Assembly: GCA_947505245.1 (NCBI GenBank)
Contig: CANNIZ010000001.1
Location: forward strand, 1-64,000
Source: Pseudomonadota bacterium
GTDB lineage: Bacteria; Myxococcota_A; UBA796; GCA-2862545
Length of the DNA: 64,000 bases
Direction of reading: 5' to 3'
The position numbers and the translations under genes are program-made. Below the pieces are notes generated by a model. The model was given only the letters and a program-made list of their open reading frames with translations. It did no database searches and was not told where the DNA came from. This document shows, piece after piece, positions 7,688 to 11,589 of the stretch. Within the stretch, counting starts at the first letter, position 1; the number at the start of each line of letters is the position of its first letter.

Positions 7688-8140
7688 ATGGTCATCGCTA
7701 CCCTGTTCTCGCTCGCGGCCCACGCCGCCGCGCCTGCCGAGGTCAACGTCGGCGACCTCGTGATCGTCGATGGTGGCGGTGGCAGCATCGTCCTGCGCGT
7801 GGTCGACCTCCAGGAATCGACGCCTGCCCAGGCCGGCGCCCTGGTCGCAGGCCTGGGGGACGACGTCACCGTTCGCGCCCCGTCCGACGGGTCACCCGCC
7901 GTCTACGTTGCCGGCGAAGTCGAACGTCCAGGCGCCGTCACGCTCGGCGATGGACTCACGCTGACCCAGGCCATCACGAACGCCGGCGGTTGGACGGCCT
8001 CAGCGCAGCTGCATTCGGTGGTGGTGCTGCGGGGCGACGAGGCCCTGCGCGTCGACCTGCGCGCGATCCTGCGTGGCAAGGAAGCCGATGTCGCGCTGCA
8101 GCCCGGAGACCGGCTGGTCGTGAACGAAGCGATCTGGTAG
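7688..8140 (+). CDS. exported SLBB-domain protein
   Basis: This 150-residue protein has a signal peptide (MVIATLFSLAAHAAA). Its C-terminal half is a single SLBB-type beta-grasp domain: VYVAGEVERPGAVTLGDGLT, LTQAITNAGGW, and a final LQPGDRLVVNE. SLBB domains occur in polysaccharide-export (Wza-like) and competence proteins. Here there is no poly-export domain and no neighbouring exopolysaccharide gene, so it may be a stand-alone periplasmic ligand-binding module. The ATG at 7688 is chosen because the signal peptide starts there. It converges on the TonB receptor gene 6 bp away. Confidence 0.75.
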   Translation: MVIATLFSLAAHAAAPAEVNVGDLVIVDGGGGSIVLRVVDLQESTPAQAGALVAGLGDDVTVRAPSDGSPAVYVAGEVERPGAVTLGDGLTLTQAITNAGGWTASAQLHSVVVLRGDEALRVDLRAILRGKEADVALQPGDRLVVNEAIW

Positions 8141-8146
8141 AGCGCC

Positions 8147-10213
8147 TCAGAACTTCGTCGTGACGTTGACGAGCGCGCTGCGCGGCGCGTGCGGGTAGTA
8201 GTACGACGTCCCGCCGAGCGCATCGGCCGAGCCGCCCTCGGGGATGAAGCGCCACGAGTAGCCCGACGGGTACGCGGTCGCGTTCGTGAGGTTCTCGACG
8301 TGCAGCGACACGGTCGTGAGGCCGGCCGCGTGCCGAACCTCCCACGCGAGGTCCGCGTCGACGAGCGCGAACGCCGGGCAGATGAACGCGTCATCACCGG
8401 TGTTGTCGAGGTACTGGCGCGACACCCCGCGCAGGCCGACGCTGGCCGTGAGCGGCTCGACGGGCTCGAAGGTGGCGCGCACCTGGCCCATCCCCCACGG
8501 GGCGAGCATCACGGGGACGTTGTCGTAGGACTTCGAGCCCATCCCCTGCCAGTAATCGTAGCTGTCGATCACGTCGTATTCTTGCGTCCACGACGCGAGT
8601 CCGTTCATCGCGAGGCTGCCCGTCGCCTGGAGCGAGAGCCCGTCGATCGGCCGCACGGTGACGTCCGCCTCCACGCCGCGACGCCAGCTCCGGTCGACGT
8701 TGCGTCGGCGGTAAACGCCCGTGGGAAGCAACTCGCCGGTGAGTGCGACCTCGTCGAACAGCTCCATATCGTAGACATCCACGGCCCACGTGAGCTTCTC
8801 CGAACGCCCGTCCACGCCGAGCTCCGCGTCGACGACATGCTCGGGAGACACGTCGGTGAGCAGAGCCGCGTCATAGTCATCGCCACCGAACAGGTCGCTG
8901 CGCGTCGGCTCGCGCCCGCTCATGCCGAGGCTCGCGTACGCGCCGACCGCGTCCGACGGCGCGTAGCGAACGCCGAGCTTGGGGTTCACGAACCCCCACA
9001 CGCGCGGTGCGAACTCCTGGGAGCCCTTGTACGACAGCGAGGCGCGGCGCGCCTGCACGTCCGCGTAGGGGTGCCAACGGCCGTAGTCGCCGGCGGCTTT
9101 GACGAACGCGGACAGCTCCGTCTTGGTGCCTGTGTTCTTGTAGTCGCGCGCGCCGTCGGTGAACCGCCGATGCACGCGCTGGAACGCGTTCACGTGCACG
9201 CCGGGCGTGAGCGTCCAGCGCGGCGTGCGGGCGACGTAGCTGCCGAACGCGCCGACCAGGCCGCCGTTCAGGTCGTACTCCTGCATCGGCGACGCGGGAT
9301 CCCAGTACGACTCGTTGACCGTGTACCAGCCGCGGCCGCCGTTCCAGTACACCGAGCCGCTGAATTCGTCGTCCTCGCCGACGTCGTGCGAGTACTGCAC
9401 CTGCGCGACGTCCTGACCGAATTCGTCGCGCGCGTCGGGACCGAGCGGGTTCGCGGTCGGGGCGTTGGCGAGCACGTAGTCTTCGGTGGCGTAGAACGAG
9501 AGGTGCTGGTGTTCGCGTCCGGCGAGCCCGGTGAACCGCAGCGTCGAGTCATCTCCGAAGCGTGCGACGGACAGGAACGTCGACGCCTGCTCCACGTCAG
9601 AGTGGTCGCGAAAGCCGTCCGTCCGCGCGCCCGACGCGCGGAACGCCGCCCGCCAGCGGCCCATCGCGCCCGTCTGCGCGGCGACCGAAGCGCGAGCGGT
9701 GCCGAACGACCCGAAGCCGAAATTCAGCTCGCCGCCCGGCTGCTCGTCGAGCCCGATCGACTCGAAGTGAATCGCACCCGCGAACGAAGGTGTCCCCCCG
9801 GCCGCGGTCCCGACGCCGCGCTGGACCTGCACGCTCTCGACCGAAGAGCTGAAGTCCACGAGGTTGGAGAGGAAGACGCCCATGTCCTCCATGTCCGCGA
9901 GCGGCACGCCGTTGAGCGTGATGTCGAGGCGCGTCTGCTGGATGCCGCGCAGCGACAGGTAGCTGTACCCGGCGCCGAGCCCGGTATCGCCCCACGCCAT
10001 CACGCCGGGCGTGTTCTGCAGCACGTAGGCGACCTCCTGCCCGTGGTACAGCGCGTCGAGGTCGTCGCGCGACAGCTCGGTTTTGGTGACCGGCGCCGTC
10101 GTATCGGCGCGAACGCCGGTCACAACGATCAGTTCGGGGGAGCGATCGTCGTCCGCGGGCTCCGCGTCGTCCGCGCGCGCAACGAGGGAAAAAATGACAG
10201 CCGTCGTCCACAT
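8147..10213 (-). CDS. TonB-dependent outer-membrane receptor, predicted thiamine/thiamine-precursor transporter
   Basis: This is a 688-residue TonB-dependent receptor. It has a short signal peptide (MWTTAVIFSLVARA/DD) and a TonB-box-like ELIVVTGVRA. The plug domain contains YVLQNTPGVMAWGDTG, YSYLSLRGIQQTRLDITLNG and VESVQVQRGVGT. A beta-barrel follows and ends in a terminal phenylalanine (LVNVTTKF). The true ATG (10211-10213) lies directly after a TPP riboswitch; an upstream in-frame start at 10279 would read through the aptamer. Riboswitch control makes thiamine or a breakdown product the likely ligand, which is inference from regulation. No other thiamine gene is in the window. Confidence 0.92.
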   Translation of the reverse strand: MWTTAVIFSLVARADDAEPADDDRSPELIVVTGVRADTTAPVTKTELSRDDLDALYHGQEVAYVLQNTPGVMAWGDTGLGAGYSYLSLRGIQQTRLDITLNGVPLADMEDMGVFLSNLVDFSSSVESVQVQRGVGTAAGGTPSFAGAIHFESIGLDEQPGGELNFGFGSFGTARASVAAQTGAMGRWRAAFRASGARTDGFRDHSDVEQASTFLSVARFGDDSTLRFTGLAGREHQHLSFYATEDYVLANAPTANPLGPDARDEFGQDVAQVQYSHDVGEDDEFSGSVYWNGGRGWYTVNESYWDPASPMQEYDLNGGLVGAFGSYVARTPRWTLTPGVHVNAFQRVHRRFTDGARDYKNTGTKTELSAFVKAAGDYGRWHPYADVQARRASLSYKGSQEFAPRVWGFVNPKLGVRYAPSDAVGAYASLGMSGREPTRSDLFGGDDYDAALLTDVSPEHVVDAELGVDGRSEKLTWAVDVYDMELFDEVALTGELLPTGVYRRRNVDRSWRRGVEADVTVRPIDGLSLQATGSLAMNGLASWTQEYDVIDSYDYWQGMGSKSYDNVPVMLAPWGMGQVRATFEPVEPLTASVGLRGVSRQYLDNTGDDAFICPAFALVDADLAWEVRHAAGLTTVSLHVENLTNATAYPSGYSWRFIPEGGSADALGGTSYYYPHAPRSALVNVTTKF

Positions 10214-10289
10214 CTCGCTTTCCTCCGCCGGGATCAACCGGATCAGGTTCTGCGGTGTGTTCTCAGGCCACCTGGCCACCCGCAGCGAG
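10214..10289 (-). promoter_or_regulatory. TPP (thiamine pyrophosphate) riboswitch, THI-box
   Basis: Read on the minus strand, the leader carries the hallmark blocks: GGCC-AGGT-GGCCTGAGA (P3 hairpin plus CTGAGA-type loop), ACACACCGC closing P2, AGAACCTGATCCGG, then CCCGGCGGAGGAA. P1 is a perfect 6-bp helix between CTCGCT (minus strand, plus coordinates 10284-10289) and AGCGAG (10214-10219). The GGAGGA Shine-Dalgarno lies inside the conserved 3' core and the ATG follows P1 directly. TPP binding should therefore hide the ribosome-binding site and shut off translation of the receptor. Confidence 0.9.
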
Positions 10290-10359
10290 TGTCCCGCAGG
10301 TAACGCGTCCCCCCTTCCAGGACAGGTCGCGTTTGCTACACTGCGCCGCTGGAGAGTCC

Positions 10360-11589
10360 ATGGAGCTCGTCACCACAACCGTGTTCCACCCCGGGGCAAA
10401 CCCCGACGCGGTGTACCTCGATCAGATCGTGGTGGAGCCGAAGCTCGGACTCATCGCCGTGGCGGACGCGCCGGCGGGTGGAGACGACGGAAAAGCGGGC
10501 GTGCGAATCGCGCTCGAGGCGGTGAAGCGCCACGTCGAGCGCAACGTCGACATCCTCGACCGGTTCCGAGCCCACCCGGCAGCCGAGCTCCGCACCGCCA
10601 TCCTGACGGTGATCGACGAGGCGTTCGGCCGCGCGGCCCAGGAGGTGTTCGCGTTCGCGCGCAGACGCAAGGGGCTCGTCGTCACGCTCGACCTCGTGCT
10701 CCTGCTCGATCACGAGGCGTTTATCGGCCACGTCGGCGACGGGCGCGTGTACCTGATACGCCGCGGCCTGGTGCACCAGCTCACTGTCGATCACTCGCAA
10801 GCGGACGAGGGTGAGGTGTTCGACGTCCTCGGCGGGGACGACAAGACCGAGGAGACCGCGGAGGCTCCAGCCCAGCAGGCCGGCGGACGCAGCTTCACCC
10901 GAGCACTCGGGCCCCTGCCGAGCGTGCGCGTGGAGTCGATGTGCATGGAGCTCGCACAGGAGGACCGCTTCATCGTGTGCGCGGCGCACCTCCACCGGAA
11001 CGTCCCGGAGTCCGCGCTGCAGACCCTGTTCGTCGGCGAGGCGTTGGACGCGCTCGGCGCGGCGATCGGCCGCTACGCGGACAAGAAGCCGGCCATCGCA
11101 GCGGCCGCCCAGCTCGGCTCGGGCGACCCGTTCAAGGCCGACTCCGCGCGCACTCGCCTCGCGCTCCTGGCGCCGATGCCGCTGTTCGCGCACTGCTCAG
11201 AGCGTGAGCTGCGGTCCGTCGCGCAAGCCGCCCGGCCGCGCACCTTCGAGGCCGGCACCGTCCTGTTCACCGAGGGGGAGACCGGTGAGGAGCTGTTCCT
11301 GCTCGTCTCCGGCAAGGTGGCCGTGCAGCACCAGGGGAAGACGCTCGCCACGCTCGGCCCTGGAAGCAATTTCGGCGAGATGGCCATGCTGGATGACAAG
11401 ACGCGGTCGGCTACAATCGTCGCGATCGAGCAGAGCGAGGCGATGACCGTCCACCGCGACGCGTTCTTCGCGATGTTGCGGGGCAACCCCGTGCTGGCGA
11501 TGAAGATCCTGTGGAACATGCTTTTGAGGTTGTCTGCGAATTTGCGCGCAGCGAACGCAAAGCTCGCAATACTCCAAAAAAGCAACTGA
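10360..11589 (+). CDS. degenerate PP2C-type phosphatase domain fused to cyclic-nucleotide-binding domain
   Basis: This is a 409-residue protein. Residues 1 to about 250 follow the PP2C fold (VVEPKLGLIAVADA, then FIGHVGDGRVYLIRRGLVHQ, which is the GDSRaYL block, then TVDHS). The first metal motif reads ADAPAGGDDG instead of DGMGGH, and the final 'SDG' block reads CAAHLHRNV, so catalysis is doubtful. From about residue 275, a CNB/cAMP-type domain has FGEMAMLDDKTRSATIV, matching the phosphate-binding cassette. The ATG at 10360 follows GGAGAG. It is probably a second-messenger-responsive regulator of kinase signalling. It is divergent from the riboswitch. Confidence 0.8.
   Translation: MELVTTTVFHPGANPDAVYLDQIVVEPKLGLIAVADAPAGGDDGKAGVRIALEAVKRHVERNVDILDRFRAHPAAELRTAILTVIDEAFGRAAQEVFAFARRRKGLVVTLDLVLLLDHEAFIGHVGDGRVYLIRRGLVHQLTVDHSQADEGEVFDVLGGDDKTEETAEAPAQQAGGRSFTRALGPLPSVRVESMCMELAQEDRFIVCAAHLHRNVPESALQTLFVGEALDALGAAIGRYADKKPAIAAAAQLGSGDPFKADSARTRLALLAPMPLFAHCSERELRSVAQAARPRTFEAGTVLFTEGETGEELFLLVSGKVAVQHQGKTLATLGPGSNFGEMAMLDDKTRSATIVAIEQSEAMTVHRDAFFAMLRGNPVLAMKILWNMLLRLSANLRAANAKLAILQKSN

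Follow-up and report, generated by a model that had tools for sequence, protein, structure and literature searches.

Why does a riboswitch that normally stands ahead of a thiamine biosynthesis gene precede a gene for a TonB-dependent receptor here, and what does that receptor import? The locus lies in a stretch of 64,000 nucleotides from a member of Myxococcota, and this whole stretch is called the window below. We consider it highly probable that a translational OFF TPP riboswitch controls a TonB-dependent importer of thiamine (or thiamine phosphate) in an auxotrophic organism.

The aptamer and the receptor gene

A cmscan search gives a full-length match to the TPP riboswitch (THI element) model RF00059, model positions 1-105, on the minus strand of the window at 10293-10203. 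The score is 57.0 bits (E 1.6e-8), over a gathering cut-off of 54.3 bits. An earlier note on this DNA had proposed a complete THI-box with a perfect P1 at essentially these coordinates, and had suggested an Infernal search with RF00059 on the minus strand as a check; the search agrees with it. The word complete needs a small correction: the full model is covered, but the P3 arm has no P3a, its optional second hairpin, just as in the thiC aptamer of a genome of the same genus (G001).

According to the sequence and the cmscan structure line, P1 is a perfect 6-bp helix, in which the 5' arm CUCGCU (10289-10284) pairs with its exact complement AGCGAG (10219-10214). The Shine-Dalgarno sequence GGAGGA (10226-10221) falls within the P4 3' strand and the stretch joining it to P1. 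The ATG of the receptor (10213-10211) comes right after P1, with 8 nt between GGAGG and ATG. The Shine-Dalgarno is thus buried in the aptamer core just before the ATG, as the earlier note had claimed, and the layout is that of direct occlusion: the ribosome binding site within the aptamer and the start codon adjoining P1. With P4 and P1 surrounding both GGAGGA and the start codon, binding of TPP should directly block initiation. No terminator-like site was found for the leader.

Folding without ligand is a weak test of a riboswitch. The minimum-energy fold of the ligand-free leader is no stabler than those of shuffled sequences (z 0.79), and in it P4 is kept and P1 is not formed. Such a fold would agree with a ligand-dependent switch, yet it is no proof of one.

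The open reading frame directly behind the aptamer (10213-8147, minus strand) encodes 688 residues. Its Plug (PF07715, 48.9 bits) and TonB_dep_Rec beta-barrel (PF00593, 74.7 bits) domains both score above cut-off, which confirms that the aptamer stands directly ahead of a TonB-dependent receptor. The N-terminus is hydrophobic, and near residue 27 the sequence ELIVVTG resembles a TonB box. No matches were returned by a sequence search of the PDB. Foldseek gave a probability of 1.00 to PqqU, FhuA, OprC and BtuB, with OprC and PqqU among the top matches, using an AlphaFold model that at pLDDT 60 is too poor for reading ligand-binding residues. From the domains, the fold matches and the TPP aptamers of its homologues we predict a receptor for thiamine (or thiamine phosphate).

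On its downstream side an SLBB-domain gene converges on the receptor gene, ending at 8140. Upstream, a divergent gene (10360-11589, plus strand) encodes a protein that combines a PP2C-type phosphatase domain with a cyclic-nucleotide-binding domain. No sigma-70 consensus or sigma-70-like site was found for the receptor leader; its promoter must sit in the gap that the ORF positions leave between aptamer and divergent gene (10294-10359, minus strand), or within the divergent gene.

Thiamine genes and riboswitch targets in the family

The genome that contains the window (G000) is 5.5 Mb in 139 contigs and 94.6% complete. Family searches, which divergent genes can escape and which here cover assemblies of limited completeness, found no ThiC, ThiD, ThiE or ThiG in it; ThiL was found at 246 bits. 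TPK was found neither here nor in any other of the 17 genomes searched, and because these include prototrophs its absence by itself says little. The organism seems to be a thiamine auxotroph that has lost its biosynthesis genes. Four relatives show the same losses and the same pattern, namely G002 (97% complete), G004 (96%), G006 (89%) and G016 (85%), with the exception of weak, sub-cut-off matches to the ThiD model in G004 and G016. With ThiC, ThiD, ThiE and ThiG missing, precursors would be unusable, so that we expect the cargo to be intact thiamine or thiamine phosphate. The earlier note had predicted uptake of thiamine or a precursor; the first half of this is supported, while a precursor would be of no use to an organism in which the searches found none of these four genes.

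The aptamer of the window is the sole one in its genome: a search of all 5.5 Mb with RF00059 returned no second match. Over the 94 genomes compared, 53 have a match. We fetched these loci and read the first downstream gene, with gene calls made by a simple script based on ORFs and codon composition. Within the order the target is almost always thiC. These thiC riboswitches (G001, G011, G013, G015, G020, G024, G033 and others) have a closely similar aptamer core and often the same overlap of GGAGGA, P1 and ATG, and differ from the window aptamer in controlling thiC instead of preceding a receptor. In G001, at a contig end, the beginning of thiC is preceded by an aptamer 79% identical to that of the window.

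In four genomes of the family an aptamer is present but no thiC was found: G000, G002, G004 and G006. A TonB receptor stands behind the aptamer in the first three, at a distance of 70 nt in G002. In G002, G004 and G006, all without ThiC, ThiD, ThiE and ThiG, the sole TPP aptamer precedes an outer-membrane or outer-membrane-like protein. None of the 12 family genomes that have both thiC and aptamers has an outer-membrane protein in this position. The association between missing thiC and an outer-membrane target has a Fisher p of 5.5e-4 with G006 and 0.007 without it, values that are too optimistic because the genomes share kinship. Identity between the receptors of G002 and G004 is 34%, the window receptor matches that of G004 weakly, and full-length matches to the G004 type occur, among 61 genomes, in G002 and G004 only.

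The riboswitch locus of G006 (L036:5288-9104, minus strand) holds the TPP aptamer, a 416-aa porin-like protein, a beta-propeller-type protein and a TLC-type transporter of the ATP/ADP carrier family. The 416-aa protein has a signal-like N-terminus, a C-terminal F and no Pfam match. The locus is a possible route for thiamine phosphate. A general role of the TLC transporter (PF03219) as partner in the inner membrane was rejected: a test over 61 genomes did not find it in G000, G002, G004 or G016. Directly behind the switched receptor of G002 is a 90-aa YkoF-family protein (L032:5324-5593, minus strand); some of the Bacteroidota loci also have similar proteins close to the receptor homologue. Our inspection of the first ORFs further suggested unusual targets, luciferase-like monooxygenase, SDR and methyltransferase-like proteins, behind TPP aptamers in L075 and L076 (G077), L059 (G042) and L081 (G082), three genomes in which no ThiC was found.

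Receptor homologues and the PnuC-kinase pair

A scan of the genome contigs with the single receptor sequence found no relatives, while an alignment of four receptors found them. With this alignment 80 homologue loci were fetched from public genomes, their gene starts being picked automatically. A TPP aptamer lies just upstream of the receptor in 73 of the 80, in Acidobacteriota, Gemmatimonadota, Bacteroidota and others, as counted with a covariance model (R1) built from aptamers of the window's phylum. R1 has no P1 and was used for detection alone; its 16 training sequences include the window aptamer, whose own R1 score is therefore no evidence. In a cross-check with Rfam, 15 of 19 sampled loci held one or more matches above the gathering score. 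The other four were L174 (G001), L182 (G033), L184 (truncated) and L203 (a weak R1 match). The seven loci without an aptamer are L174, L179, L180, L182, L184, L239 and L241; in L184, L239 and L241 the receptor starts at or near a contig end.

Given the 73 loci with an upstream aptamer, the receptor family appears to be riboswitch-linked in several phyla. The earlier note had proposed to compare homologues for conserved upstream THI-boxes, and the comparison speaks for its reading and not for a family of orthologues lacking the element. The nearest homologues within the phylum, in G001 (same genus) and in G024 and G033 (same order), are without an aptamer, and all three genomes keep thiC; judged by these sequences, the receptor can also occur outside TPP control. 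In the loci L146 and L147 (G033 and G024) the homologues have no aptamer, and in G024 what we read from the sequence as a copper-type P-type ATPase is encoded upstream. The homologues of these two genomes may have a different ligand.

Genes for a PnuC-like protein (PF04973) and a NadR-kinase-like protein (AAA_28) are adjacent to each other in 39 of the 80 loci. In one Methylococcaceae locus and 11 from Acidobacteriota the pair is encoded behind the receptor gene, on its strand; in two Marivirga loci (L227 and L235) a separate TPP aptamer sits just ahead of the pair. In the Gemmatimonadaceae loci L179 and L180 the pair is upstream of the receptor on the same strand, with no TPP aptamer in the fetched stretch. 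Further, NMT1/THI5-like proteins follow the receptor in some Bacteroidota homologues. A DUF6687 protein (PF20392; L227:6071-7123) is placed directly behind the switched receptor of L227, with a similar protein in L235; three TPP aptamers are present in each of these two loci.

The window's own receptor gene is apparently solitary, and the pair is found on another contig of the same genome. There a PnuC/PnuT-like gene (G000:C28:48052-48588) overlaps a NadR-kinase-like gene (L254:8601-9146). The two are 42% and 37% identical to the pair of the Acidobacteriota locus L166, which sits behind a TPP-switched receptor (its NadR-kinase-like gene is L166:6477-7040). No TPP aptamer was found in the fetched stretches near the PnuC genes of G000, G002, G004, G016, G018 and G033. 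PF04973 is present in G000, G002, G004 and G016; of the 16 genomes in the family that possess thiamine biosynthesis genes, only two have it (G001 and G018; Fisher p 0.011). The PnuC homologue of G000 scores with the model for nicotinamide riboside transport, and the analysis does not separate it from PnuT. NCBIfam names the proteins of the pair for nicotinamide riboside, so it is genomic linkage that makes them candidates for a role in thiamine uptake. The NadR-kinase-like protein, recurrently paired with PnuC near TPP-switched receptors, is a candidate thiamine kinase.

A comparable system is known from Bacteroides thetaiotaomicron, where the TonB-dependent receptor OMthi (BT2390) lies behind a TPP riboswitch and belongs to a system with PnuT and Tnr3; deleting it together with biosynthesis raises the thiamine requirement about tenfold (PMC5613172). 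The window receptor is likewise TonB-dependent and behind a TPP riboswitch, a likeness drawn from the description of OMthi. In contrast to OMthi, it stands alone and its aptamer overlaps the Shine-Dalgarno. B. thetaiotaomicron also keeps its biosynthesis under a separate TPP riboswitch, whereas biosynthesis appears lost in the window genome. The gene omr1 has been used as a B1 uptake marker in Baltic Sea metatranscriptomes, for Sphingomonadales, Cellvibrionales, Bacteroidetes, Verrucomicrobia and Nostocales; its specificity is drawn as unclear, and Myxococcota go unmentioned (PMC12442306). The association with TPP riboswitches expected of an Omr1/OMthi-like family is what the 73 loci display. 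We take the window case to be an Omr1/OMthi-like receptor, a new member of a kind already described elsewhere, and what distinguishes it is an apparently re-used thiC aptamer.

Origin of the switch and the proposed mechanism

The aptamer and the receptor have different relatives. On model-aligned columns the window aptamer has a mean identity of 0.854 to 21 thiC aptamers of its order, against 0.665 for the 48 compared receptor aptamers from other phyla. In the aptamer tree, whose 75 columns are too short for much resolution, it falls in a set of 22 rows together with 20 thiC aptamers (UFBoot 100, SH-aLRT 99). The receptor groups with Acidobacteriota receptors and the other homologues of its phylum (SH-aLRT 100), on a long branch that leaves its exact placement unsure. 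This suggests that the leader of thiC was reused for the receptor after thiC was lost. Synteny between the window locus and the thiC locus of G001 was looked for and none was found, so we cannot trace the steps by which the aptamer came to stand before the receptor.

A thiC-type aptamer in an assembly of 139 contigs might also be a non-functional relic of a thiC leader, or its junction with the receptor an assembly chimera. We hold either to be most improbable: the locus sits 10 kb into a contig of 238 kb, an in-frame ATG follows directly, P1 and the Shine-Dalgarno are intact, and no thiC was found elsewhere in the genome. Further, G004 has a similar layout before another receptor, and in G002 the distance between the two is short, as given above. 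A different cargo, such as copper, nicotinamide riboside or a siderophore, with riboswitch control acquired by accident when thiC was deleted, has somewhat more in its favour. It would fit the aptamer-free homologues of G001, G024 and G033, the PnuC and full NadR-like protein on the receptor's contig in G001, the copper-type ATPase near the G024 homologue, and OprC and PqqU among the top Foldseek matches of the poor model. Nevertheless we regard it as improbable, given the aptamers at 73 of 80 homologues, in other phyla, and the other outer-membrane(-like) proteins behind the sole aptamers of G002, G004 and G006, which are without thiC.

The nature of the thiamine compound is a narrower matter. 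Import of a phosphate, TMP or TPP, would feed ThiL directly without a thiamine kinase; ThiL is retained with neither TPK nor ThiE found, and a TLC-type transporter is part of the G006 locus. Yet a dedicated carrier across the inner membrane would be required for a phosphate, the search for TLC gave nothing in G000, and the PnuC/PnuT-like protein with its adjacent NadR-kinase-like protein fits free thiamine followed by phosphorylation. A phosphate cargo is therefore rather unlikely, though a more serious contender than the two readings above.

In the preferred reading, a riboswitch-controlled thiamine importer, the window aptamer would descend from the leader of the missing thiC. When TPP is scarce, the leader would leave GGAGGA and the ATG accessible and the receptor would be made; when TPP is plentiful, P4 and P1 would be locked around the Shine-Dalgarno and initiation blocked. 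Thiamine brought in by the receptor would next pass the inner membrane by way of the PnuC/PnuT-like protein encoded on contig C28. It could then be converted to TMP, for which the adjacent NadR-kinase-like protein is the candidate enzyme, and TMP to TPP by ThiL.

A wider version of this proposal is put forward tentatively, as somewhat less likely than not. Thiamine biosynthesis would have been lost more than once in the family, and on each occasion the TPP riboswitch would have been retained and come to stand before an outer-membrane importer. Three unrelated proteins would have been used: the window receptor, the receptor type of G002 and G004, and the porin-like protein with the TLC-type transporter of G006. 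In G000 a PnuC-linked, NadR-kinase-like thiamine kinase would feed ThiL, with no TPK.

The locus would extend thiamine-controlled outer-membrane receptors to Myxococcota, with many further examples in Acidobacteriota and Gemmatimonadota. The linkage of the NadR-kinase-like gene, together with a ThiL kept without TPK or ThiE, makes the missing salvage step from thiamine to TMP directly testable. For the family, the locus would be a compact case of regulatory takeover, in which a riboswitch has apparently outlasted its biosynthetic gene and been reassigned to import.
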